Assembly: GCA_902776365.1 (NCBI GenBank)
Contig: CACYPU010000001.1
Span: 372,001 to 436,000 of the forward strand
Origin: an uncultured Bacteroidota bacterium
Lineage (GTDB): Bacteria > Bacteroidota > Bacteroidia > Bacteroidales > P3
Length of the DNA stretch: 64,000 nt
Reading direction: 5' to 3'
Shown: piece by piece, positions 3 through 60,491 of the stretch
Position numbering within the stretch: the first letter of the stretch is position 1
How the letters are laid out: each line of letters opens with the position of its first letter
Made by a program: the position numbers and the translations under genes
The notes under the pieces: model-generated
The model's database searches: none
What the model was told of the DNA's origin: nothing
What the model saw: only the letters and a program-made list of their open reading frames with translations

Positions 3-266
3 CTCGGCCTCCAGACCTTCCTTACCGCTGGCCCCAAGGAGTGCCGTGCGTGGACTTTCAAGAAAGGAATGAAAGCCCCTCAGACCGCAGGCATCATCCA
101 TTCCGACTTCGAACGCGGTTTTATCCGCGCCGAAGTCATCAAGTATGACGACTACGTAACCCTCGGCTCCGAAGCCAAATGCCGTGAAGCCGGCAAGATA
201 GCCGTCGAAGGCAAAGACTACATCGTCCAGGATGGCGACATCATGCACTTCAGATTCAACGTATAA
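3..266 (+). CDS. ychF: YchF/Obg-family ATPase, C-terminal fragment (5' end outside window)
   Basis: Reading from base 3 without a break to the TAA at 264-266 gives about 87 residues that match the C-terminal TGS region of the redox-regulated ATPase Ych[14 protein letters not shown], then [19 protein letters not shown], and the terminal [10 protein letters not shown]. YchF binds ribosomes and hydrolyses ATP in the cytoplasm. The ATPase domain lies upstream of the window, so only the TGS end can be described. An in-frame ATG at 69 is internal to this domain and is not a start. The next gene begins four bases after the stop. Confidence 0.95.
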
Positions 267-270
267 TCAC

Positions 271-3156
271 ATGAAAGGTTTAATAGGTTTAAGAGGTTTT
301 AAAGGTTTGAGAGGTGCGCGTCTTTTGCCCGTCACCTTTTTAACCTTTTCAACCCTTTTAACCTTTTTAACCCTCTCCTCTTGCTCCACCCAGAAAGCCA
401 AGTGGGTCAACATCCAGTACCATAACCTCACCTGTCACTACAACGTTTGGTGGAACGGTAACGAAAGCCTCAAGGCTGGACGGCTGAAACTCAAAAAGCA
501 AGCCGTCGACGACTACACTCAACTCATCCCCATCGAAAACCTCGGCACCGACGAGTTGTCTCGCTCCCTCAATCCTGAGTTCGACCGCGCCATCGAGAAA
601 GGCGTCAAAGGCATCAGGGAACATAGCATCTTTGTCAAAGGCCAGGAACATGTGCCCTACATCAAGGAATGCTACCTCCTCACCGCCTACGCTACCTTCT
701 ATAAGCACGACTTCGTCTCCACCGTCAACTCCTGCAACATCCTTGTCAGTCAGTTCCCCGGCACACGCGCCGGCGACGAAGGCGCCGTCCTCCTTGCCCG
801 CTGCCAGACCATGGAGAAGCAGTACCCCGAGGCCGAAGCAGCCCTCGACCAGCTTGTGCGCAACCTCGACAAAGGCAACTTCTCCCGCTCTCAGCGCGAC
901 AAGCTCTACCTCGCTATGGTCGAAGCCACCGTGCCACAGGAGAAATACAAGAAAGCCGTCGAATATATCCATCTCGCCATCGACGCCTCCTCCGACAGCT
1001 ACACGCGCGCGCGTCTCTATTTCCTTATGGCCCAGATCTACCGTAAGCTCGACAAACGCACCGTCGCCGCCAAATACTACGGCGAAGTGCTCTCCTGCAA
1101 CCCGCCCTACGTTATGGAGTTCAACGCCCGCCTCGGCGAAGCCTCCTGCGCCGACCTCCAAAACTCCGACACCGCCAAGCTTGCCCGTCAGCTCGACCGC
1201 ATGCTCTCCGACAAGAAGAACGAGGAATACCTCGACCAGATATACTACGCCAAAGGCGAAATGTACCTCGGTGTCAAGCAGCCCCAGAAAGCCTGCGAAA
1301 ACTACCGCCTCTCCGTCGCAGCGTCCACTGTCAACAAGGCACAGAAAGCCCAGTCGTCTCTTCGCATGGGTGAGGTGCTCTACGATATTTTCGAGGACTA
1401 TGACCAGGCCCAGAGCTACTACGACACCGCCATCCATATCATCACCCCCGACTATCCCAATTACCCCGCCATCCGCCGCCGCTACGACATGCTCACCGAG
1501 CTCGTCTCCTTCACCCGCGTCTACTCCCGCTGCGACAGCCTCAAAGCCGTCGCCGCCATGCCTGAGTCCGAACGCATGAACCTCATCAACGGCAAGATTG
1601 AAGCGCTTAGAAAGCAGGAGGAAGAAGCCCGCGAGAAAGAGCTCATGGAGGAACTCCTCTCCGACGCCCGTGCTCAGCAGAACACCCTCTCCGGCGACTG
1701 GTACTTCTACAATCCCCAGACCGTCCAGAAAGGCAAGGAAACCTTCCGTCAACGGTGGGGCACCCGCACCCTCGAAGACCTCTGGTTCCTCTCCAACAAG
1801 AATACGATGTCTATGCTCACTTTCGACGATGAGCCCGACTCCGACTCAAGCAATAACGCAATAACGCAATCACGCAATCAAGACACCTCAAGCAATAACG
1901 CAATAACGCAATCACGCAATCAATACGGCGACCCCACCGACCCCCACAGTCCTGCCTATTATCTCAAGGACCTCCCCACCTCGCCGCAGCAGTTCGACTC
2001 CATCGACTCCCTCACCTCCCTCTCTCTCCTCGGTGCGGGATACATCTTCTACGATGGCATCCACAACATCCCTCGCGCCCTCGAATGCTATCACCGCCTC
2101 GCTTCCGACTACACCTCGCATCCCGAGATTGTCCAGGCCTTCTATATGCTCTACCGCATCTACGACCGTCAGGGCAACACCCCCCAGGCCAACTACTACC
2201 GCGATATGGTCCTCATGGGGTTCCCCGACTGCGACTTCGCCAACCTCATCCGCGACAACGAATACTACAAGGAACTCCTCCGTCGCGAGCGTGTCGTCGA
2301 GGCCGACTATGAGGAGATGTATTCCCACTTCGTCGACGGACGCTACACTGCCGCCGTCACCATTGCCGACCGTGCCGAGGAGAACTATCCCGGCAATCCC
2401 ATGCTCAACAAATTCCGCTACTTCCGCGCACTCGCCCTCGCTCACAAAGGCCTTCGTGCCGATGCCGTTACGCTCCTCAAGCCCCTGGCCTCCCTTCCCG
2501 CCAGCGACAGCCTTCAGCCCTTCGCCAAAGCCCAACTCGAACTCCTCCAGGATTCTACCTACGACTACCTCTCCGAATCTTCCGACCGTCCTACCTCCGA
2601 AAACTCCTTGAACTCCTTGAACTCCTCGAACTCCTTGGACTCCTTGAACTCCTTGAACTCAAGCAATAACGCAATAACGCCTGCCCGACCGCAGGGAGCG
2701 GCCTTGAGCACCGCTGAAATAAATCAAATTAGCGAAAAATCACGCAATCAAGAAGAACCTTTGCCAAAAGAATCACAGGTCTACCGCTACCGCCCCAACC
2801 AGCAGCAGTTCATCGTCATCGTCGTCAACGACCGCACAGTCAGAGCCACCGAATTGCAGAATAAAATTATTGAATTCAATAATATATACTATTCCAATAC
2901 CGGACTCAAAGTCAACACCTCCCTCTTCACAGACACCACCCAGATCATCACCATACATCGCTTCGTCAACGATGACGACGCCTTCAACTATTGGAGCCAC
3001 CTCCAGCAGGAAGAAAGTCCACTGCACCAGCTCGCCCCTGGCGACCATATCGAGTTCCCCATCACCTCACAGAACTACGCCACCTTCTACAACCGCAAGG
3101 ACCCCGCAGCCTACCTTCCCTTCTTCAAGAAATACTACCTCGACAAAAGAAAATAA
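271..3156 (+). CDS. porW: Type IX secretion lipoprotein PorW/SprE, TPR-rich
   Basis: 961 residues. The ATG at 271 is chosen because it starts a lipoprotein signal peptide: a basic Gly-Leu-Arg-rich n-region, a Thr/Phe/Leu core and a lipobox LSSC near residue 36. The mature N-terminus has the HNLTCHYNVWWNGNESLKAG signature of the PorW/SprE family, followed by TPR-like helices (YAKGEMYLG, YYDTAIHII, ALECYHRLASDY). In characterised species PorW/SprE links the outer ring to the motor of the type IX secretion and gliding machinery; the role here is by homology. Two stretches of low-complexity sequence (residues about 527-551 and 778-828, rich in Ser/Asn/Gln) are encoded by tandem DNA repeats and make the protein longer than I expect for the family. 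Upstream is ychF, downstream a bactofilin. Confidence 0.85.
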   Translation: MKGLIGLRGFKGLRGARLLPVTFLTFSTLLTFLTLSSCSTQKAKWVNIQYHNLTCHYNVWWNGNESLKAGRLKLKKQAVDDYTQLIPIENLGTDELSRSLNPEFDRAIEKGVKGIREHSIFVKGQEHVPYIKECYLLTAYATFYKHDFVSTVNSCNILVSQFPGTRAGDEGAVLLARCQTMEKQYPEAEAALDQLVRNLDKGNFSRSQRDKLYLAMVEATVPQEKYKKAVEYIHLAIDASSDSYTRARLYFLMAQIYRKLDKRTVAAKYYGEVLSCNPPYVMEFNARLGEASCADLQNSDTAKLARQLDRMLSDKKNEEYLDQIYYAKGEMYLGVKQPQKACENYRLSVAASTVNKAQKAQSSLRMGEVLYDIFEDYDQAQSYYDTAIHIITPDYPNYPAIRRRYDMLTELVSFTRVYSRCDSLKAVAAMPESERMNLINGKIEALRKQEEEAREKELMEELLSDARAQQNTLSGDWYFYNPQTVQKGKETFRQRWGTRTLEDLWFLSNKNTMSMLTFDDEPDSDSSNNAITQSRNQDTSSNNAITQSRNQYGDPTDPHSPAYYLKDLPTSPQQFDSIDSLTSLSLLGAGYIFYDGIHNIPRALECYHRLASDYTSHPEIVQAFYMLYRIYDRQGNTPQANYYRDMVLMGFPDCDFANLIRDNEYYKELLRRERVVEADYEEMYSHFVDGRYTAAVTIADRAEENYPGNPMLNKFRYFRALALAHKGLRADAVTLLKPLASLPASDSLQPFAKAQLELLQDSTYDYLSESSDRPTSENSLNSLNSSNSLDSLNSLNSSNNAITPARPQGAALSTAEINQISEKSRNQEEPLPKESQVYRYRPNQQQFIVIVVNDRTVRATELQNKIIEFNNIYYSNTGLKVNTSLFTDTTQIITIHRFVNDDDAFNYWSHLQQEESPLHQLAPGDHIEFPITSQNYATFYNRKDPAAYLPFFKKYYLDKRK
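276..378 (+). repeat. Inverted tandem repeat encoding the PorW signal peptide
   Basis: Left arm (276-315) repeats AGGTTTAAGAGG-like units; right arm (337-374) repeats the complement, CCTTTTTAACC. In frame the left arm encodes GLxGLRGFKGLRG and the right arm TFLTFSTLLTFLT. The same arrangement occurs at 16129-16317. Confidence 0.8.
1849..1922 (+). repeat. Direct repeat inside porW
   Basis: Two copies of a roughly 36-base block built from CAATAACG and CAATCACG octamers. It encodes the duplicated peptide SSNNAITQSRNQ separated by DT. In frame and stop-free. Confidence 0.8.
2602..2756 (+). repeat. Second repeat tract inside porW
   Basis: A 9-base unit CTCCTTGAA repeated about seven times (encoding Asn-Ser-Leu triplets), then another copy of the AACGCAATAACG octamer block seen at 1849 and a final ACGCAATCAAG. 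It forms a linker before the C-terminal domain. Confidence 0.75.
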
Positions 3157-3601: not shown

Positions 3602-5143
3602 ATGGACGAAGTCGAACATCTGCAACGGCTCTTCTCCCAATGGGCCGGCGTTCCTTGTCAGGAATGCCTGGCCTTGGGTGCCAATGGCTCCAGCCGCCGA
3701 TATTATAGATTAGTGGGTAGTGGACAGTGTGTAGTGGGTAGCACTCGGGAACAAATGCTACCCACTACCCACTACCCACTATCCACAATCTCAGCCATCG
3801 GTTGCATCAACGACGACATCCGCGAGAACGAGGCCTTCTTCTCCTACAGCCGTCACTTCCATGCCAAAGGCTTGCCGGTGCCTGAGATTTATGCCGTCAG
3901 CGACGACCGCCGCTGCTACCTCCAGCAGGACCTCGGCGACCAGACCCTCTATGGCCTCCTCTTCGATAAGAAAAGGCAGGGTGGGGGATTCGACGCCGAA
4001 ATGCTGGACCTTTATAAGAAAGCCCTCGCCGACCTCGCCGCCATCCAGCAAGGGGGCGCCGATATGGACTTCTCTGTGGCCTATCCCCGCAGCGACTTCG
4101 ACCGTCAGTCCATCCTCTGGGATCTCAACTACTTCAAGTACCATTTTCTCAAGCTCACCCACACCCCTTTCGACGAGCAACTTCTCGAGGATGATTTTAA
4201 CCGCCTCGCCGACTTTCTCCTCCAGGCCGACTGCCGATACTTCCTCTACCGCGACTTCCAAAGCCGCAACATAATGGTAAAGGATGACAAGTTGTATTAT
4301 ATAGATTATCAAGGTGGCCGTCGTGGCGCAGCGCAGTATGATGTGGCCTCGTTGCTCTACAGCGCCAAAAGCGACCTCCCGGAAGTAATCCGACTCGACC
4401 TCCTCAACCATTACCTCGATGTCCGCGGACTGAAAGGCGAGGAGCGTCAGCGTTGGCTCGGACACTTCTGGGGCTACGTCCTCGTGCGTATCCTCCAGGC
4501 CCTCGGCGCCTATGGCTATCGCGGCCTCTTCGAGCGCAAGGATTACTTTATCCAGTCCATACCCCTCGCCCTCAACAACCTCCGCAGCCTCCTCGAGAAC
4601 CACCCTCTGCCCATCGAACTGCCCGAAATTACTAAAGTAATTTGGGAAGTGCATGGTAGTGCAAGGAGTGCAGAGGAGTGCGAGACAAATGCTCCTTCAG
4701 TGGTATTGTCCCAGCACTCCCCAGCACTCCCCGGCACTCCCCAGCACTCCTTGGTTGTCACCGTCAGCAGTTTCAGTTACAAGCGAGGCCTCCCCACCGA
4801 CCCCTCCGGCAATGGCGGCGGATTCATCTTCGACTGCCGTGCGCTGCCCAACCCCGGCCGCTACGCCGAGTACAAGACCTATACGGGCAAGGACCGTCCT
4901 GTCATCGAGTTCCTGCAGAAGGAACCCGCCGTCGACCAGTTCCTCAACCATGTCAAAGCCATCGTAGGACAGAGTGTGGAGAAATATATGGAACGCAACT
5001 TCACCAGCCTCCAGGTCTCCTTCGGCTGCACAGGTGGTCAACACCGCTCTGTCTACTGCGCCGAGCAGATGGCCCATTATCTTTCTGATAAATATCCTGA
5101 CTGTCAGGTTGTTATTATCCATCGCGAGCAAGATAAATGTTAA
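3602..5143 (+). CDS. Aminoglycoside-phosphotransferase-like sugar kinase fused to a RapZ C-terminal domain
   Basis: 513 residues; the ATG at 3602 follows the bactofilin stop by four bases. Residues 1-345 are an APH-fold kinase: GANGSSRRYYR near 27-36, the catalytic loop YRDFQSRNIM at 216-225 and the metal-binding IDYQGG at 234-239. This resembles AmgK-type amino-sugar kinases of cell-wall recycling. Residues 386-513 match the C-terminal domain of RapZ (GFIFDCRALPNPGRY, FGCTGGQHRSVYCAEQMA), here without the RapZ N-terminal ATPase domain; in E. coli RapZ senses glucosamine-6-phosphate. The combination suggests amino-sugar or cell-envelope sensing, which is inference. Two palindromic repeat inserts lie in frame, at residues about 36-62 (inside the kinase N-lobe) and 350-385 (the interdomain linker). 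Confidence 0.8.
   Translation: MDEVEHLQRLFSQWAGVPCQECLALGANGSSRRYYRLVGSGQCVVGSTREQMLPTTHYPLSTISAIGCINDDIRENEAFFSYSRHFHAKGLPVPEIYAVSDDRRCYLQQDLGDQTLYGLLFDKKRQGGGFDAEMLDLYKKALADLAAIQQGGADMDFSVAYPRSDFDRQSILWDLNYFKYHFLKLTHTPFDEQLLEDDFNRLADFLLQADCRYFLYRDFQSRNIMVKDDKLYYIDYQGGRRGAAQYDVASLLYSAKSDLPEVIRLDLLNHYLDVRGLKGEERQRWLGHFWGYVLVRILQALGAYGYRGLFERKDYFIQSIPLALNNLRSLLENHPLPIELPEITKVIWEVHGSARSAEECETNAPSVVLSQHSPALPGTPQHSLVVTVSSFSYKRGLPTDPSGNGGGFIFDCRALPNPGRYAEYKTYTGKDRPVIEFLQKEPAVDQFLNHVKAIVGQSVEKYMERNFTSLQVSFGCTGGQHRSVYCAEQMAHYLSDKYPDCQVVIIHREQDKC
3706..3786 (+). repeat. 81-bp palindromic element, copy A, in frame inside the kinase gene
   Basis: Tandem TAGTGGG-type heptamers, a roughly 20-base centre, then the complementary CCCACTA heptamers. 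It is nearly identical to 9812-9892 and encodes, in the same frame, LVGSGQ.VV.S...Q.LPTT.YPLST. Both copies are exactly 81 bases (27 codons). Confidence 0.9.
4648..4752 (+). repeat. Second inverted repeat inside the kinase-RapZ gene
   Basis: The left arm (4648-4681) repeats AGTGC with GGAGTGC; the right arm (4713-4751) carries four GCACTCC units in AGCACTCCCC-like decamers. The arms are complementary and the tract is in frame between the two domains. Confidence 0.75.
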
Positions 5144-5193
5144 GTATCTAATAATTAGGTATTTTAACGTCATTTCAACCATGTTTCAACCAT

Positions 5194-5219
5194 ATTTCGA
5201 CCATTTTTATGGTCGAAAT
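5194..5219 (+). terminator. Hairpin after the kinase-RapZ gene
   Basis: ATTTCGACCAT and ATGGTCGAAAT form a perfect 11-bp stem with a TTTT loop. It follows two further TTTCAACCAT units, so it is also a small repeat-plus-inverse tract. There is no long T-run after it; termination is plausible but not certain. Confidence 0.45.
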
Positions 5220-5315
5220 GAGGTAAAACAATGGAAAAAACAAAGGGGAAACTACATTCTCGATAAAAATATCTTGCTTAAAAACAGTGAGATGTGAGGT
5301 TTTTTGAAAAAATAT

Positions 5316-5346
5316 TTTGCCAGTCTCAAAAATGTTCGTACTTTTG
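5316..5346 (+). promoter_or_regulatory. Promoter of the tRNA-Glu gene
   Basis: TTTG at 5316-5319, 19 bases, TACTTTTG at 5339-5346: an exact match to the Bacteroidota consensus. The tRNA starts 20 bases further on. Confidence 0.85.
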
Positions 5347-5366
5347 CACCCGATTTCAAAAGAACT

Positions 5367-5440
5367 GCCGCATTCGTCTAGTGGTCCAGGACATCTGCCT
5401 CTCACGCAGAAGATCATCAGTTCGACTCTGATATGCGGTA
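5367..5440 (+). tRNA. tRNA-Glu (anticodon CTC)
   Basis: A 74-base cloverleaf. The acceptor arms GCCGCAT and ATGCGGT pair with one G-U. The anticodon arm ATCTG/CGCAG holds loop CCTCTCA with anticodon CTC (codon GAG). The T arm is ATCAG-TTCGACT-CTGAT. The D arm GTCTAGTGGTCCAGGAC is the usual tRNA-Glu form. The discriminator base is A at 5440 and CCA is not encoded. It has its own promoter and terminator. Confidence 0.95.
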
Positions 5441-5445
5441 CGAAG

Positions 5446-5466
5446 CCTCCCCAAAAGGGAGGTTTT
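5446..5466 (+). terminator. Terminator of the tRNA-Glu gene
   Basis: CCTCCC, AAAA loop, GGGAGG, followed by TTTT. It begins six bases after the tRNA. Confidence 0.8.
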
Positions 5467-5477
5467 CCATTATTTAT

Positions 5478-5508
5478 TTTGTCGTTTTAAAGTTTTTTCG
5501 TATTTTTG
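5478..5508 (+). promoter_or_regulatory. Promoter of the YfcC-family gene
   Basis: TTTG at 5478-5481, 19 bases, TATTTTTG at 5501-5508. The start codon is 20 bases downstream of the box. Confidence 0.85.
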
Positions 5509-5528
5509 CCTTTTCAATTGGAGATGAA

Positions 5529-6950
5529 ATGAAACGCATACCGCATACCTTTACCATTGTCTTTGCGCTTATTGTACTGTCGGCGGTGCTCACCTGGGTG
5601 GTGCCTGCGGGTGAGTTTACCCGCGAAACCATCACCGATGTCAACGGCGACAGCCGCGAGGTGGTGGTCAATGGCTCGTTCCATTATGTCGACAGCGCCC
5701 CGCAGACCTGGCAGGTCTTCTCGGCGCTCTTCAACGGCTTCAAGGAGAATTCAGGCATCATCGTTTTCATACTCATGGTCGGCGGCGCCTTCTATATCCT
5801 CAACAACAGCCACGCCATCGACGTGGGTGTGATGGCTTTCCTGCGGAAGGTGAGACGTCTGGGACGGTATAAGCTTATCGAGAAACTGGGTGTCGACAAC
5901 ATCATCATCACCTTTGTGATGCTGATGTTCAGCCTCTTCGGAGCAGTCTTCGGCATGAGCGAGGAGACCATCGCCTTTGTCGTTGTCTTCATCCCGCTGG
6001 CCATCCAGATGGGCTACGACAGCATCGTGGGCGTCTGTATGTGCTATGTGGCAGCCCATGTGGGCTTCGCCGGCGCCATGCTCAACCCCTTCACCATCGG
6101 CATCGCACAGGGCATCGCCGACCTGCAGCTCTTCTCAGGATTGGAATACAGGCTCTTCTGCTGGGCAGTGCTCACCGTTATCGGCATCGCTTTCGTGTTG
6201 TGGTATGCCCATCGCGTGAAAGCCAAGCCCGAGCGCAGCCCCGTCTACAAGCTCGACGACTACTGGCGCGAGCGCCAACTGAACACCGAACACTCAACAC
6301 TAAACACTAAACATATCCTCATCCTAATCGTGCTGCTGCTCACCATCGTGGCCCTCGTTGTCGGGGTGCTGAAGTGGGACTGGTACATAGAGGAAATCTC
6401 GGCCCTCTTCCTGGCGATGGGTATCGTCAGCGGCATCATCGACCGGCAGGGCGCCGACGGTATCGCCAAGCTCTTCCTTGCCGGTTGCAAGGACATCCTC
6501 TCCGCCGCCTTGGTGGTAGGCCTCGCCACTGGCATCATCGTCATCCTCAGGGACGGTCATGTCATCGACACCATCCTCTATGGCCTCACGCGCTCGCTGG
6601 GCAAACTTGGCGAGGTGGCCTCGCTGGCGGTGATGTACGTCTTCCAGACGCTGCTCAACGTCGTCATGCCCAGCGGCTCCGCCAAGGCGGCGCTCACCAT
6701 GCCCATCATGACCCAGTTCGCCGACCAGATAGAGGTCTCGCGCCAGACGACGGTGCTGGCCTTCCAGTTCGGCGACGGTTTTACTAATATGCTCACGCCC
6801 ACGAGTGGAGTGTTGATAGGAGTGTTAGGCATCGCCCGCATCCCCTACGGCACCTGGCTCAAATGGGTCTGGAAATTCATCCTCGCCCTCATCCTCCTCG
6901 GTTTCCTCCTCATGCTCCCCACTCTCTGGATGCACCTGCCGGGATTCTGA
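5529..6950 (+). CDS. YfcC-family membrane carrier
   Basis: 473 residues. The ATG at 5529 is chosen because it lies just downstream of the promoter and GGAG, and starts MKRIPHTFTIVFALIVL; the longer frame would run through the tRNA. The protein has about a dozen hydrophobic segments and the YfcC-family landmarks WVVPAGEFTRE, the GVVFIL-like GIIVFILMVGGAFYIL, and PSGSAKAALTMPIM near the C-terminus. YfcC proteins belong to the ion-transporter superfamily of dicarboxylate and basic amino acid carriers; the substrate cannot be read from sequence. A heptamer repeat tract inserts NTEHSTLNTKH in a cytoplasmic loop between helices. Confidence 0.85.
   Translation: MKRIPHTFTIVFALIVLSAVLTWVVPAGEFTRETITDVNGDSREVVVNGSFHYVDSAPQTWQVFSALFNGFKENSGIIVFILMVGGAFYILNNSHAIDVGVMAFLRKVRRLGRYKLIEKLGVDNIIITFVMLMFSLFGAVFGMSEETIAFVVVFIPLAIQMGYDSIVGVCMCYVAAHVGFAGAMLNPFTIGIAQGIADLQLFSGLEYRLFCWAVLTVIGIAFVLWYAHRVKAKPERSPVYKLDDYWRERQLNTEHSTLNTKHILILIVLLLTIVALVVGVLKWDWYIEEISALFLAMGIVSGIIDRQGADGIAKLFLAGCKDILSAALVVGLATGIIVILRDGHVIDTILYGLTRSLGKLGEVASLAVMYVFQTLLNVVMPSGSAKAALTMPIMTQFADQIEVSRQTTVLAFQFGDGFTNMLTPTSGVLIGVLGIARIPYGTWLKWVWKFILALILLGFLLMLPTLWMHLPGF
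6279..6313 (+). repeat. Heptamer tract inside the YfcC-family gene
   Basis: Imperfect AACACTA/AACACTC heptamers encoding NTEHSTLNTKH in frame, in the hydrophilic loop before the second half of the carrier. The same family is seen at 28419-28455. Confidence 0.6.
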
Positions 6951-7167
6951 TTGTGATAAATATTTTGTCTTTTGGTAAAGCGTATCCATAGCCTTTTATT
7001 ATGTGGTAGCCCTCCTTTTTCGCGCCCGCGAACAAACAAACTTTTTGCTATTCCAGAAACATTACGAAAATTTTCGTTTCATTTCATGGCTCGTTTTCTC
7101 GCCTCGGAATAAGAGCATGCTCTTCCCCTCTCGGCTTAACGAAACGTTGCGAAAAATTTTGCAACTG
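6951..7167. other. Gap between the YfcC-family and AAA ATPase genes (convergent)
   Basis: No gene is supported. It holds two perfect 14-base palindromes, ACGAAAATTTTCGT (7064-7077) and AAGAGCATGCTCTT (7111-7124), and an imperfect TTGCGAAAAATTTTGCAA (about 7147-7164). A clear U-tract terminator is not visible for either convergent gene. Confidence 0.6.
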
Positions 7168-8226
7168 CTATTGCGTGATATTCCGACAAATCCATTGACG
7201 GAAGAAGGGATCTTCCACCTCGTAATGGGTACTACGCACCACGATGCCCGACCTCATCATCCTTAGCAGCGAACTGTACGAGGTACTTGCCGCAAGACCA
7301 CCGCTTTGCATCGGTTGCCGGTTCATTACTAGCTGCTTCAGCGTGAAGCGGTCGGTACGGTTCAGGTTCTGCCACAGTCGTTCATAGTCGAGGTCGTGCA
7401 TGGTCACCAGCGCCTCGATTGCCTTCGTCACCACATCTTCCTTGATTTTCTGATATTTCATCATCTCCCACACCTGCGACGAAAGTTGCTGGGTATAGTA
7501 AGGATGGCAGGTGGTGAACTGCAGTATCTCCTCAGCCACATTTGCGTCGCCATTCGGGAGTCGCTCGGTGATGTAGACCATAAAGTCCTCGTGAGGGATT
7601 TTTGGCAGGCGTATCATCTGGCCGAAATGGTAGAACGGCGAAGTCTTCTTCTCGAAGATGGCCTCCATCATGGACTCCTGGCTACCGAGCAGAATATAGT
7701 TCAAGTTCTTCTGGTGCTGCATCAGCGACCGAAGCTGCTTGTCGAACCCTTTCTTGATTTTGAGCACCTCCTGAAACTCGTCGAGCACGATTATCAGCCG
7801 TTTGTCGGGCGACGTCACCTTGTCCACCAGTGCCATTGCATCCTCCAGCAGTACGCTGGTGTTGGCCGACGGGTGGAAGCTGACCTCCATTGCCCCTGTG
7901 ACGGGGTTGGAGGATACTGTAGGAATGACTCGAAAGTGCGACATCGCGTGGCGCACCTTCTCCATCTGGAAGCGTTTGAAGATGGCCCTCAGCAGTTGAG
8001 ACGCGAAATCTTCCATGCTCAGCACATACTGCAGGTCGAGCTGTAGGATGGGACGGTCGGTTTGCGAGAGTACACGCTGCACCAGGCTACTCTTTCCAAA
8101 ACGGCGGGGGCTGATAAGCACGATATGGTTTTCGCTGTCCAGTTTCTGTGCCAGCTGGGTCGTTTCTGCCACCCTATCGGTAAAAAAATCACCCTCTACT
8201 ATCGTTCCGAACTTAAAAGGATTCAT
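7168..8226 (-). CDS. AAA-type ATP-binding protein (COG1672-like)
   Basis: 352 residues starting MNPFKFGTIVEGDFFTDR, the usual opening of the archaeal-type P-loop ATPase family found throughout Bacteroidota. Walker A is SPRRFGKSSL near residue 40, Walker B is LIIVLDEFQEV near 145, and a sensor-like LLGSQES follows. The C-terminal third (LTMHDLDYERLWQ, RTDRFTLKQLVMNRQP) looks like the winged-helix end of the family, ending in YEVEDPFFRQWI. Members are often called NTPases of the STAND/MNS type; targets are unknown. Its promoter diverges from that of the caspase gene within a 145-base spacer, so the two may share regulation. Confidence 0.85.
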   Translation of the reverse strand: MNPFKFGTIVEGDFFTDRVAETTQLAQKLDSENHIVLISPRRFGKSSLVQRVLSQTDRPILQLDLQYVLSMEDFASQLLRAIFKRFQMEKVRHAMSHFRVIPTVSSNPVTGAMEVSFHPSANTSVLLEDAMALVDKVTSPDKRLIIVLDEFQEVLKIKKGFDKQLRSLMQHQKNLNYILLGSQESMMEAIFEKKTSPFYHFGQMIRLPKIPHEDFMVYITERLPNGDANVAEEILQFTTCHPYYTQQLSSQVWEMMKYQKIKEDVVTKAIEALVTMHDLDYERLWQNLNRTDRFTLKQLVMNRQPMQSGGLAASTSYSSLLRMMRSGIVVRSTHYEVEDPFFRQWICRNITQ

Positions 8227-8274
8227 ATTGTTAGCACTTTATGATTGCGAAAATCTTCGCAACGAAATTTTTCG

Positions 8275-8305
8275 CAAAAATACGGATAAAATTTTAATCA
8301 GCAAA
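8275..8305 (-). promoter_or_regulatory. Promoter of the AAA ATPase gene
   Basis: On the minus strand TTTG (8305-8302), 19 bases, TATTTTTG (8282-8275). The leader between it and the start at 8226 contains the inverted repeat GCGAAAA...TTTTTCGC. Confidence 0.85.
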
Positions 8306-8321
8306 ATATTTTCACAAACTT

Positions 8322-8352
8322 TTTGTCATTTCTGAAAAAAAGTGTATCTTTG
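8322..8352 (+). promoter_or_regulatory. Promoter of the caspase gene, divergent to the ATPase promoter
   Basis: TTTG at 8322-8325, 19 bases, TATCTTTG at 8345-8352, 18 bases before the ATG at 8371. Its -33 box is only 17 bases from the -33 box of the divergent promoter. Confidence 0.85.
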
Positions 8353-8370
8353 CAGTCTCAAAAAAAGATA

Positions 8371-8985
8371 ATGACGACTATCAAATATAGACAGTTATGC
8401 TATCGGAAGCCATGTTCCGATACCCGTAGGATACAGCCATTTTTGATTGCTGTCTTATTGCTATTCCTTTTGCCGTCAAATCTTTTTGCTCAGCAGAAGC
8501 ACGCTTTGCTAATAGGAATATCCGACTATCCTCAATACAAAGACTCCGATGCTTCGTGGAGCCGTATACATGGAGCAAATGACGTACAGTTACTATCGCC
8601 GATATTATCCAAACAGGGATTCAAGGTTACAACACTCACCAACAAATCTGCAACTCATAGTTCGATAGAGAAGAGTCTTAAGAAACTTAGTCAATCAATA
8701 CAACCAGGAGACATTGTATACATCCAACTCTCCGGTCACGGTCAAGCTGTTGAAGATGAGAATGAGGACGAAGTGGATGGATGGGATGAAGCGTTTATCC
8801 CTTATGATGCCAAACGTTGTTATAAGGAGAATGTCTATCGCGGAGAGAACCATTTGCTGGACGATGAGCTAAACAACCACCTAAATGCCATAAGAAAGAA
8901 AGTAGGAGAAAACGGCATTGTCTATGTAGTGATTGATGCCTGTCATGCAGGATCCGCAATAGACAGCCTGCGCAGAAGAAATTAA
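8371..8985 (+). CDS. Short secreted caspase-family (C14) peptidase
   Basis: 204 residues; the ATG at 8371 is set by the promoter. Residues about 22-41 form a signal peptide ending NLFAQ. The caspase p20-like fold follows: ALLIGISDYP at 45-54, catalytic His123 in QLSGHGQ, the acidic stretch EDENEDEVDGWDEAFIPYD typical of metacaspase-like proteins, and catalytic Cys191 in VIDACHAGS. The protein stops 13 residues after the cysteine. Caspase-family proteins of this kind usually continue with a further subdomain and often a long C-terminal region, so this may be a truncated gene with an intact dyad, or a minimal form. It is AT-richer than neighbouring genes, which suggests acquisition. Confidence 0.8.
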   Translation: MTTIKYRQLCYRKPCSDTRRIQPFLIAVLLLFLLPSNLFAQQKHALLIGISDYPQYKDSDASWSRIHGANDVQLLSPILSKQGFKVTTLTNKSATHSSIEKSLKKLSQSIQPGDIVYIQLSGHGQAVEDENEDEVDGWDEAFIPYDAKRCYKENVYRGENHLLDDELNNHLNAIRKKVGENGIVYVVIDACHAGSAIDSLRRRN

Positions 8986-9233
8986 TAAATATTTGTAAAT
9001 GAGGTTGTTTTAGAGATTCCTAAGTAAGATGATATTATGTACACCAACTGATTTACTTTATAAAAATCCCAATAAGTTGTCAACCTTTTCATGAACACTG
9101 TCAACAATGTCAGGAAATTGTCAACGTCCCCAGTATATCACCTAACAAAAGCTTCAGGAAAAGGGCATTAAACTATCAACCAAAATCAGGAAAAGACAGT
9201 CATTTCCGTCGCCAAATAGAAAGAATTTGTTGA
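8986..9233. other. AT-rich spacer after the caspase gene
   Basis: No coding frame is supported. It has several TGTCAAC words (GTTGTCAACC, CTGTCAACAATGTCAGG, TTGTCAACG) and CAGGAAA words. I could not find the missing caspase C-terminus here by eye. Confidence 0.5.
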
Positions 9234-9235
9234 TA

Positions 9236-9290
9236 TTTTTGGAATCAATTCCGAAAAAATTATAATATTTTTGGAGTTGATTCCAAAAAA
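9236..9290 (+). promoter_or_regulatory. Two tandem palindromic operator-like sites before the M28 peptidase gene
   Basis: GGAATCAATTCC (9241-9252) and GGAGTTGATTCC (9273-9284), each flanked by T- and A-runs, sit 32 bases apart, about three helical turns, so on one face of the DNA. The second overlaps the -33 element. A half site TGGAATC follows at about 9307. Confidence 0.6.
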
Positions 9291-9302
9291 GTTGTATTTT
9301 TG
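9270..9302 (+). promoter_or_regulatory. Promoter of the M28 peptidase gene
   Basis: TTTG at 9270-9273, 21 bases, TATTTTTG at 9295-9302. Two more TATTTTTG words at 9234 and 9266 could be additional promoters. Confidence 0.75.
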
Positions 9303-9368
9303 CAAATGGAATCGTATCATTATTAATAAGTCAAAATTATGCAAATTATTGACCGTCCGACAGACAAA

Positions 9369-10325
9369 ATGAGAAAGGTGGTAAGAATATTTTGCGTAAG
9401 CATAATTTTCAACTTTCAATTTTCAATTTTCAATTCTGTCACCGCCCAGGACAGCAGCTATGTGCGGCGTGTCATCTGCGACCTCTCGGCGCCGGAGATG
9501 TTCGGGCGCGGGATGCAGAATAGGGGAGACTCCATCGCAGCGGAGTACCTGCGCCAGGAACTGCGGGCGCTGGGTGTAAAGCCGTTGGGGAAGGACTATT
9601 TCCAGTATTTCCGCTTTCCCAATACGCGTACCACGCCGCCGATAGTGAAGGCCGGCTACCGTTCGCAGAACGTCTGCGGCTATATCCCCGGTGAGACGGA
9701 CACGATGATTGTCTTCACCGCGCACTATGAACACCTCGGTATGCACGGCGACACCATCTTCTACGGCGCCCACGACAACGCCAGCGGCACCGCCGCCGTC
9801 CTCGACCTCGCTAGATTAGTGGGTAGTGGACAGTGGGTAGTGGATAGCATTCGTGGACAAGTGCTACCCACTACAAACTACCCACTATCCACTAAATACA
9901 CCTACGTCTTCCTCTTCTTCGGCGGTGAGGAGAGTGGTCTTGTCGGCAGCGCCTACTTCGCTGATATTCCGCTTATCAAGATGAATAAGGTGAAGTTCTT
10001 GATGAATATCGACCTCTTCTGTGGCGGCGACGACGGACTTATGATTGTCAACGCCAATGCCCCGGAGACGAAGCCTTATGTCGACCTGCTGGAACAACTC
10101 AACAATGAACGACACTACGCAGCTAAGATCGGCCGTCGCGACAATGCTGCAAACAGCGACCACTGGCACCTCAGCAAGCAGTGCCCTGCAGTCTTCATCT
10201 ACACCCTCGGAGGCCCCTTCGGCGGCTACCACAGCCCCACCGACACCTGCGAGGGGTGCGGGCTCGGTAACTACAACAACTTTATGACCCTCCTGAAAAC
10301 TTTCTTGGAACATATTGAACAATAA
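9369..10325 (+). CDS. Secreted M28 family zinc peptidase
   Basis: 318 residues from the ATG at 9369, which gives a compact signal peptide MRKVVRIFCVSIIFNF...SVTAQ; an in-frame ATG at 9339 is the alternative. The M28 metal ligands are present: His119 (FTAHYEH), Asp136 (GAHDNASGTAA), Glu187/Glu188 (FFGGEESGLVGSAYF), Asp215 (NIDLF) and His288 (GGYHSPTDT). The enzyme should be an exported aminopeptidase with two zinc ions. Its signal-peptide core is encoded by TTTTCAA heptamers (about 9410-9436). Residues about 149-175 are a palindromic repeat insertion, shared with the sugar kinase at 3706-3786, between the DLAR helix and the strand leading to the metal-binding glutamates. Confidence 0.85.
   Translation: MRKVVRIFCVSIIFNFQFSIFNSVTAQDSSYVRRVICDLSAPEMFGRGMQNRGDSIAAEYLRQELRALGVKPLGKDYFQYFRFPNTRTTPPIVKAGYRSQNVCGYIPGETDTMIVFTAHYEHLGMHGDTIFYGAHDNASGTAAVLDLARLVGSGQWVVDSIRGQVLPTTNYPLSTKYTYVFLFFGGEESGLVGSAYFADIPLIKMNKVKFLMNIDLFCGGDDGLMIVNANAPETKPYVDLLEQLNNERHYAAKIGRRDNAANSDHWHLSKQCPAVFIYTLGGPFGGYHSPTDTCEGCGLGNYNNFMTLLKTFLEHIEQ
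9812..9892 (+). repeat. 81-bp palindromic element, copy B, in frame inside the M28 peptidase gene
   Basis: Near-identical to 3706-3786: the same start TAGATTAGTGGG and end CCACTATCCAC, with roughly ten substitutions. Encodes the same peptide frame (LVGSGQ, then LPTTNYPLST). Forms a long fold-back. Confidence 0.9.
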
Positions 10326-14383: not shown

Positions 14384-14513
14384 GTTTAAGGGTTTAAGGG
14401 GTTTAAAAGGTTTAAAGGGTTTAAGGGGTTGGGCTTGTGACCTTTTTGACCTTTTAAGCGAAGCGTGGTTAGCCCCACGAACTTGCTGAGTGAACCTTTT
14501 ATACCTTTTAATC
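14384..14513. repeat. GGTTTAAGG repeat tract between dnaN and ftsX
   Basis: GGGTTTAA, GGTTTAAAA and similar units (14384-14430), then complementary GACCTTTTTGACCTTTT (14438-14456) and ACCTTTTATACCTTTTAATCC (14494-14514). Same family as the porW and 16129-16317 tracts, here intergenic. Confidence 0.75.
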
Positions 14514-32568: not shown

Positions 32569-32576
32569 ATTTTTCT

Positions 32577-32660
32577 TAGTTGGTAGTTGGTAGTTTGTAG
32601 TTGGTAGTCAGTTTTTGGCGCATCAGCCAACTACCAACTATCAACTGTCCACTACCCACT
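32577..32660 (-). repeat. Palindromic element in the clpC leader
   Basis: TAGTTGG heptamers (32577-32609) face their complement CCAACTA and then CCACTACCCACT (32627-32660). On the coding strand it starts AGTGGGTAGTGGACAGT, the same words as the 81-bp elements at 3706 and 9812. It ends eight bases before the clpC ATG. Confidence 0.8.
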
Positions 32661-32672
32661 GATTTCGAAATG

Positions 32673-52721: not shown

Positions 52722-53279
52722 TTAACCGATAGCTTGACGGATGCGGGCGGCGATGTCCTCGATGGTACCGAGGCCGTCGACGATGCGCTGCTTGCCCTGC
52801 TTGGCGTAGTAGTCGGCCACAGGCTTGGTCTTGTTGTTGTACTCCTGGAGGCGGTTGTTGATGGTGGCCTCGTTGTCGTCGGCGCGGCCTTGAATCTTGG
52901 CGCGTTCGAGGAGTCGGCGCATCAGCTCGTCCTTGGGGACCTCGAGCTGCACCATGCAGGTGAGCTCACGACCGTGTTTGGCCAGCAGTTTGTCGAGGGT
53001 TTCGGCCTGTGCTACGGTGCGGGGGAAGCCGTCGAAGAGCATGCCCTTCTGGTCGGCAGCGATGGCATTGTCCATCATTTCGACGACGATGTCGTCGCTG
53101 ACGAGCTGGCCGTTGTCCATGATGCTTTTGATGCGGAGGCCTAGCTCGGTCTTGTCGGCAATCTCCTTGCGGAGGAGGTCGCCGGTGGAGACGTGTGTGA
53201 GGCCGTAGGTCTCGACTATGAAGTCGCTCTGGGTGCCTTTGCCGGCCCCGGGAGCTCCGAAAATAACGATATTTTTCAT
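52722..53279 (-). CDS. adk: Adenylate kinase
   Basis: 185 residues, the short-lid form without zinc cysteines. P-loop GAPGAGKGTQSDFI at residues 7-20, THVSTGDLLRKEI, LFDGFPRTVAQAE and RADDNEATINNRL. Interconverts AMP, ADP and ATP. Confidence 0.97.
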   Translation of the reverse strand: MKNIVIFGAPGAGKGTQSDFIVETYGLTHVSTGDLLRKEIADKTELGLRIKSIMDNGQLVSDDIVVEMMDNAIAADQKGMLFDGFPRTVAQAETLDKLLAKHGRELTCMVQLEVPKDELMRRLLERAKIQGRADDNEATINNRLQEYNNKTKPVADYYAKQGKQRIVDGLGTIEDIAARIRQAIG

Positions 53280-53280
53280 A

Positions 53281-53388
53281 AAGTTTAAAGTTTAAAGTTT
53301 AACGGTTAACGGAGACGCTACGCAGTCGAATTGTCGAAAACGTGATGCGGCAGCTTTTCTTTAAACGTTAACCTTTAACCGTTAACCA
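53281..53388. repeat. Inverted repeat spacer between adk and the FKBP gene
   Basis: AAGTTTA heptamers and AACGGTTAACGG on the left (53281-53312) face TTTAAACGTTAACCTTTAACCGTTAACC on the right (53361-53388). A repeat-plus-inverse tract that could fold in the adk leader. Confidence 0.7.
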
Positions 53389-54306
53389 TTACTTAACTGA
53401 GATAATTTCGATGTCGAACACCAGGGGAGAGTAGGGGGGGATGACGTCGCCGAATCCGCGGCTGCCGTAGGCCTCCTTCGAGGGGATGACCAGCTGCAGC
53501 ACGGTGCCGACATTCTGGTTGAGGAGACCCTTGTCCCAGCCGGCAATCACCTCGGCGATACCAATCTTGAAGGTGAAGGGCTCGTATTTGCGGCGGCTGT
53601 CGTAGACCTCGCCGGAGCGGGCGTCGCTCTCCACGCTGCTGTCGAAGATGGTGCCGTCGAGCAGACGGCCGGTGTAGTTCACCGTCACCTCCTTGCCAAT
53701 GGTCACTTTGGGACCCTTGCCCTGCTTCTTCACCACGATATAGATGCCGTCGGCGGTGGGCTTGGCGGTAATCTTGTTCTCGGTGATGTAGTTCTGAAGG
53801 TCTTCGGGCTCTTCCTGCTCCATCTGGCGCATGTTCTCCACCCAGTTGTTCTGCTCCTGGAGGATCTCATCGCGAGTCACGATGTCCTGCAGGTTGATCT
53901 GGTAGTAGAACTTCTGACCGCTGCCGGGCTTGTAGTTGGTGGGCATCTGGTCGTTGTTCAGATAGCTGGCCAGGACGTCGGCATCGAGAGCGAAGGTGGC
54001 GATTTCGCCCACATGCATCTTCAGCAGGCCTTCACCCACCTTGCCTTCCCAGCCGGGGTTGGCGGTGACCAGGCGCTTCACATTGCCTTTGGTGTCGTAG
54101 ATGACGGAGTCTTCGAACTTCACGGTCATCTCGCCCACCAGCACGTCGCCTTCCTGCACCTGCTGGCCGTTGGGGTTGGATTGTTCGACCATGTAGGAGA
54201 GTCCTTCGGAAATCTCCTGATATTCGCCCTTGTTCTCACTGTTGCAAGCGACCATCATCGCTGTGCCGGCCACCATCAAGGCGGCCCATTTCATGCTGTG
54301 TCTCAT
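53389..54306 (-). CDS. FKBP-type peptidyl-prolyl isomerase lipoprotein A
   Basis: 305 residues. Signal peptide MKWAALMVAGTAMMVAC with lipobox MVAC. Residues 30-190 are an N-terminal domain seen in FKBP-type lipoproteins of this phylum (VQEGDVLVGEMTVKFED, VGEGLLKMHVGEIATFALDADVL); residues 205-305 are the FKBP domain (VNYTGRLLDGTIFDSS, VIAGWDKGLLNQNVG, IPSKEAYGSRG, IPPYSPLVFDIEIISVK). Folds or chaperones exported proteins. Paralogue of the next gene, same length and layout. Confidence 0.92.
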   Translation of the reverse strand: MRHSMKWAALMVAGTAMMVACNSENKGEYQEISEGLSYMVEQSNPNGQQVQEGDVLVGEMTVKFEDSVIYDTKGNVKRLVTANPGWEGKVGEGLLKMHVGEIATFALDADVLASYLNNDQMPTNYKPGSGQKFYYQINLQDIVTRDEILQEQNNWVENMRQMEQEEPEDLQNYITENKITAKPTADGIYIVVKKQGKGPKVTIGKEVTVNYTGRLLDGTIFDSSVESDARSGEVYDSRRKYEPFTFKIGIAEVIAGWDKGLLNQNVGTVLQLVIPSKEAYGSRGFGDVIPPYSPLVFDIEIISVK

Positions 54307-60369: not shown

Positions 60370-60491
60370 AAAAAATGAAAAATGAAAAATGAAAAATGAA
60401 AAAATAGAGAAAAAATGAAAGTGGGTAGTGGGTAGCAGGTAGTGGGTAGTGGGTAGTAAAATGAAAAATGAAAGTGGGTAGTGGGCAGTAG
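60370..60491. repeat. GAAAAAT and TAGTGGG heptamer tracts downstream of priA
   Basis: Five GAAAAAT units (60373-60402), then TAGTGGG units (60421-60457), again GAAAAAT and GTGGGTAGTGGGCAGTAG up to the priA stop. The TAGTGGG part uses the same words as the 81-bp elements but lacks the inverse arm. Confidence 0.85.

Follow-up and report, generated by a model that had tools for sequence, protein, structure and literature searches.

The 64,000-nt window analyzed here (positions 372,001 to 436,000 of the forward strand of contig CACYPU010000001.1, assembly GCA_902776365.1, from an uncultured Bacteroidales bacterium) contains two nearly identical palindromic segments, each read in frame within an unrelated gene, one encoding a kinase-like protein and the other an M28 peptidase. 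Both segments belong to a dispersed family. We consider it likely that both are copies of one short palindrome, protein-coding and non-autonomous, which occupies dozens of places in this genome, and others in congeners, as a neutral or mildly selfish passenger. The host genes, the two elements and the codons that keep them open are as follows, in window coordinates.

3602..5143, plus strand: kinase gene with the first insert (Pfam PF01636, APH, and PF22740, RapZ C-terminal)
3712..3787, plus strand: first element, 76-nt unit, with left arm 3712-3742, core 3743-3756 and right arm 3757-3787, delimited by a 40-copy alignment and symmetric pairing
3725..3727, plus strand: CAG codon replacing the sole in-frame TAG of the left arm of the first element (column base C)
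9339..10325, plus strand: M28 peptidase gene with the second insert (Pfam PF04389, E 1.1e-24)
9818..9893, plus strand: second element, 76-nt unit, with left arm 9818-9848, core 9849-9862 and right arm 9863-9893
9831..9833, plus strand: CAG codon that clears the stop in the second element

A sequence-only reading of the window had described these segments as an 81-bp pair, 3706-3786 and 9812-9892, inserted in frame into two unrelated proteins. The near-identity stands, although the estimate of roughly ten differences is corrected to 8 of 81 positions. Both segments are uninterrupted open frames, with the predicted reading YRLVGSGQCVVGSTREQMLPTTHYPLST in the kinase and ARLVGSGQWVVDSIRGQVLPTTNYPLST in the peptidase, and the hosts are indeed unrelated, an APH/RapZ C-terminal protein and an M28 peptidase; in a profile search, AmgK and RapZ models also matched the 3602..5143 product, but below their cut-offs. 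The proposed fold-back is supported by DNA folding z-scores of -8.03 and -5.58, with 0 of 200 shuffles folding as well in either case. The TAGATT that precedes the unit is common to the window pair but lies outside the unit conserved among the 40 aligned copies. The word TAGTGGGTAGTGG has 22 matches in the window with at most two mismatches, compared with 0.64 on average, and never more than 5, in 100 shuffles.

A search for further copies returned 91 match rows in the same genome, which merged to 44 places. In 23 of these, parts of both arms are present (54-81 nt); the other 21 are shorter (29-41 nt) and mostly consist of a single arm. The frame is open through the element in 18 of the 23 two-arm places and closed in five; one of the 18, C1:264684, lies in an open reading frame (ORF) without gene assignment, and at 17 of the 23 the flanking gene sequence can be aligned in frame to congeners. 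Family matches were found in 19 of 99 genomes searched, namely the own genome and 18 of 58 congeners, and in none of 40 genomes from other families within the order. Scanned with a strict pattern, one genome per species yielded 14 stretches in six metagenome-assembled genomes (MAGs) titled Bacteroidales or Bacteroidetes, some of which are probably the same records as congeners G002, G012, G019 and G046. Altogether, 116 records collapsed to 59 copies. Of these, 42 are open, the frame extending for at least 35 codons to either side, three are ambiguous and 14 are not open; the set includes orthologous copies, so that its counts are not independent events. The 40-copy alignment comprises the 42 open copies minus two gapped ones, L011, which is in no recognized gene, and the truncated L055.

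Comparison with orthologues confirmed that the segment is an addition to its hosts. At all 17 two-arm sites checked (kinase, M28 and 15 further genes), the host sequence of congeners without the element can be followed in frame to either side of the site, and many congeners are empty at the same sites or carry something else there. The suggestion that the segment has moved or been copied between unrelated genes is supported by its 44 places and by the orthologues that lack it. The comparisons set aside site 15 in five genomes, the FAD protein in two, the helicase in G012 and the gene labeled unk11 in G019, and weak ManC-like rows were treated as paralogues. Pfam matches were obtained for 12 of the 15 further hosts, leaving three without. 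The 12 are probably ManC-like, RlmI-like, NUDIX, family 20 hexosaminidase-like, PIF1-like helicase, amidohydrolase, FAD, TruA, glycosyltransferase, RsmH, PurL-like and Cca-like proteins. The same family occupies the same site in G046 (RlmI, unk11, M28), G019 (NUDIX, GH, M28) and G012 (TruA). When TruA, RsmH, M28 and ManC were aligned with solved structures, the insert lay in a gap or separated aligned blocks, and the insert sites are probably loops of the host proteins. The kinase gene of G046 carries a family element at a second site (C53:46315-46391), near window-protein residue 226, and the kinase match in G019 (C84) likewise breaks near residue 226.

One-arm copies, which lie outside the set of 17 orthologue-checked sites, occur in ORFs with matches suggesting RibD, NadD, FolC (two arms), a GHMP kinase, GyrB/ParE and RibF, and further suggestive matches point to a UDP-GlcNAc epimerase, a SpoU methylase, MurF, a sigma-54 activator, RecO, NTP_transf_5 and NqrA. 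A rule that one-arm copies end on the right in a constant phase was considered and does not hold generally. In one of these ORFs, NadD-like, the array stands at the very start (L126, G000:C2:171454-171485), where its ATGCTACCC could supply the start codon, and the FolC-like ORF contains two separate one-arm inserts (L129, G000:C1:206107-206291).

The 40-copy alignment defines a conserved unit of 76 nt that is symmetric about its middle, with a 31-nt heptamer arm, a 14-nt core and an inverted 31-nt arm, and with AGTG and CACT at its ends. The arms are terminal inverted repeats in which 84.4% of cells are still paired, and the non-repetitive core is, with the arms, common to copies at unrelated loci. 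Conserved arms and very stable predicted folds would be expected if the hairpin served the host, for example in mRNA decay or translation control, and were kept by selection. The arms do not covary, however: cells changed on both sides number 2, against 16.5 in shuffles, and are therefore rarer than in shuffled arms, on which ground a selected structure was rejected. One pair is moreover broken in every open copy in favor of the open frame, the host genes are unrelated, and the family is absent from most orthologues. A host function is accordingly improbable.

The broken pair reflects a simple coding rule. As follows directly from the sequence, an arm of TAGTGGG units contains an in-frame TAG once per three units whatever the frame, because the seven-base unit shifts the frame by one base. 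All 40 ungapped open copies use the same single frame with zero stops, and the codon at the stop position is CAG in 18 and GAG in 22, never TAG, which breaks the stem pair there in 40 of 40. The repeat is thereby made compatible with coding by removal of one stop at the cost of one stem pair. Sixteen of the 17 orthologue-checked copies retain the position, the Cca copy being cut short ahead of it, and each of the 16 has C or G there. By contrast, on the best-scoring strand T stands at this position in 11 of the 12 non-open copies that have a base there (n = 14); nine of the 14 are gapped against the unit, and no ORF of at least 100 codons spans any of them in a scan that covered ORFs alone. 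A crude estimate of pN/pS for the inserted peptide, made without correction for relatedness, is 0.72. Together with the cleared stop and the broken pair, we read this value as indicating an insert that is tolerated rather than selected. It could instead be supposed that RNA processing or the ribosome skips the insert, in the manner of the bypassing elements of yeast mitochondria; palindromic inserts in Magnusiomyces mitochondrial genes are mentioned as bypassed in PMC6649704. A kept frame and a cleared stop would serve no purpose in a skipped segment, and we regard skipping as barely plausible.

Under the passenger reading, the unit would be copied in trans to many genomic places. Within genes, the version that ribosomes can read would persist, with its CCCACTA arm downstream, its in-frame TAG changed to CAG or GAG and a frame-keeping length, and about 25 residues would be added to probable loops of working proteins; selection would leave the passenger only in tolerant places, and outside long open frames the ordinary TAG version would persist. 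Several observations count against this account. The 40 of 40 at the stop position is partly circular, since an open frame partly defined the class and openness excludes TAG by definition, so that the 16 orthologue-checked copies carry more weight; C occupies the position in one non-open copy, and on the other strand T stands there in just 9 of 13 non-open copies. The M28 copy of G019 (L034) is followed by just 13 open codons, and it looks as though the M28 frame has been lost or the gene broken in that genome, or else the MAG assembly is faulty. No transposase was identified, the search for a parent element having been confined to Y1_Tnp, and no target duplication or exact junction could be resolved at species-level divergence. 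The strict element pattern had no match in viral contigs, and the full element was not found on plasmids. The one-arm pattern did recover nine viral-contig stretches (L313-L321), which are (CTACCCA)n arrays without the strict element.

As a vehicle we considered a Y1 (RAYT-like) transposase, which would make the unit an element of the repetitive extragenic palindrome (REP) type. One Y1_Tnp match is present in the own genome, and at least one in 13 of the 18 element-bearing congeners. The other five (G008, G009, G019, G037 and G057) lack it, absences that are weakened by MAG incompleteness, and such a gene is present anyway in 73 of 119 genomes from the genus. No family unit occurs in the printed flanks of the own-genome Y1_Tnp gene, and the unit ends in AGTG/CACT rather than GTAG. 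Y1_Tnp genes do not track the element, the link was rejected for want of a clear association, and mobilization by this route is very improbable.

Besides the 76-nt family, these genomes contain many other heptamer arrays. In 464 kb we counted 143 period-7 arrays, compared with one in Markov-simulated sequence, and 70 of the 143 lie inside ORFs of at least 100 codons. Per 100 kb, four species (own, G002, G056 and G046; five samples) have 14-50 of them and G014 has 25 (one 20-kb sample); three further congeners gave 0-2.5, and seven controls from the order 0-5. The controls are of 20-40 kb each, and a 2-kb sample of G073 with a GC of 0 is uninformative. Near-perfect 21-bp palindromes, CAACACCCTACCAACTCCTAC/GTAGGAGTTGGTAGGGTGTTG (L270, L271, L272 and L274), with loops only a few bases long, recur in the own genome and G046, and their GTAG start recalls REPs.

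Other arrays also occupy the loops in which the family is found. In 90 comparisons at 15 sites, the congener carried the same family or its arm in seven, another period-7, -8 or -9 array in 38 and none in 45, a tally in which the own copy at site 15 was counted as another array and visibly repetitive segments, such as that in ManC of G002, were counted as none. By the same test, 3.6-8.2% of random windows of four genomes scored as arrays, these windows being of 110 nt and including intergenic DNA, compared with site segments of varying length. In G002, AGTGTTT fold-backs occupy the TruA, RlmI and unk6 loops, and GGTGAAA and CTCATCA units the kinase and M28 loops; in G056, AGTGGAA fold-backs occupy the FAD protein and unk11. 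At RlmI, unk6, GH and the FAD protein, inspection by eye suggests that arrays built of different heptamers share the host codon before which they stop.

The abundance of heptamer arrays and the different arrays in sister-species loops are what would be expected if slippage and template switching built fold-back arrays in place and no unit moved. The non-repetitive core and the layout common to copies at unrelated loci speak against such a local origin, as does the lack of covariation between arms, contrary to recent mutual templating, and we judge it unlikely. Seven bases have been proposed to favor polymerase slippage, a proposal cited in the part of PMC4679880 drawn on here; slippage could make the arms, yet would not explain the shared cores.

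Core words recur between different arms. Either GCTACGCAG or GCTACACAG stands between AGTGGAA, AGTGTTT, TTATGAC and GTTTAAA arms, and two copies are hybrids, L041 with an AGTGGAA left arm and a CCCACTA right arm and one in L263 with an AGTGTTT left arm and a CCCACTA right arm. The core GCTACGCAG has 11 occurrences in 464 kb, five of them near arrays against a 4.3% background, which is suggestive only. These hybrids and shared core words keep alive a tentative possibility, namely that the elements are modular, with site, core and coding layout retained and both arms exchanging their heptamer as a whole in place, and that orthologous insertions of sister species would thereby come to be made of different heptamers. 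The main alternative to arm replacement is repeated, independent occupation of a small number of tolerant loops. The reuse of loops by different heptamer arrays makes the origin of new protein segments, and the spread of heptamer repeats in bacteria, testable.

Elsewhere in the window, an intergenic fold-back at 53277-53391 has GTTTAAA-type arms around a core with GCTACGCAG, a core word that stands between other arms in G002, G056 and G022 (GCTACACAG there). A second core, AAGCGAAGCGTGGTTAGCCCCACGAACTTG(C/T)TGAG, is present in two different-armed fold-backs from two species, at window 14403-14511 and L263 944-1048. The ORF at 232-3156 has internal period-8 and period-9 arrays at 1837-1934 and 2595-2697. 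The related words reported in the clpC leader and by priA were both recovered, the latter directly downstream of the gene, with the two genes identified by Pfam.

32572..32663, no strand assigned: related fold-back of TAGTTGG units upstream of a clpC-like gene, without an open frame
60419..60491, plus strand: direct array of TAGTGGG units downstream of a priA-like gene

Among known systems, the closest in behavior are the Rickettsia palindromic elements (RPEs), described in passages of PMC2229807 as short in-frame palindromes with an open frame, 105-146 bp long, in unrelated conserved proteins and between genes, and likewise in Wolbachia; text from PMC3733652 adds a CGTC at one end. In-frame intragenic palindromes beyond Rickettsia are therefore already known on the portions of these sources used here, from Wolbachia (PMC2229807) and from the GTAG/CGTC REPs of several species (PMC3733652). 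According to the same part of PMC3733652, intragenic REPs add 20-30 residues to ORFs, most often in Opitutus terrae and Rickettsia conorii, REP stems are of 5-13 bp with tagged ends, and CGTC repeats are reported from Bacteroidetes too. The present unit resembles them as a palindrome within ORFs and differs in its 31-nt, heptameric, untagged stem and in that no transposase link was found; at 76 nt with AGTG/CACT ends it falls outside the 20-40 bp and GTAG end of REPs, and the five element-bearing congeners without Y1_Tnp do not fit an association with RAYT. With miniature inverted-repeat transposable elements it shares terminal inverted repeats, in its 31-nt arms, and with heptamer tandem arrays a period of seven beyond chance. 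The 107-bp and 155-bp Correia/NEMIS elements of Neisseria, as excerpted from PMC2229807, have one open version mostly in ORFs and a closed version between genes; open and closed versions exist here too, but they differ mainly by one base in 76 nt. The heptamer arrays of cyanobacteria, Xanthomonas and Beggiatoaceae are, in the sections drawn from PMC4692102 and PMC4679880, dispersed, direct and mainly intergenic, whereas here two inverted arms and a core form a unit found in genes. In Nematomorpha mitochondria, long inverted repeats lie in coding sequence and both arms encode conserved residues (PMC6649704, in part), in contrast to an added segment missing from orthologues. No published heptamer-built coding palindrome in Bacteroidota was found among the matches listed from the open-licence literature.

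The parallel with Rickettsia drawn in the sequence-only reading therefore holds for behavior and fails for length and end tag. With unrelated hosts and element-free orthologous sites at 17 of 17, the family does what defines RPEs as in-frame palindromes; we do not file it as an RPE because length and end tag differ, the present unit being 76 nt, built of heptamers, ended by AGTG/CACT and found in Bacteroidales, and the likeness is judged by the RPE description rather than by RPE sequence. The family is best read as working like the RPEs, with no homology claimed. On this reading a Bacteroidota lineage joins the few bacteria known with in-frame palindromic passengers in conserved genes, and comparisons can draw on numerous insertions, on empty sites and on sister families.

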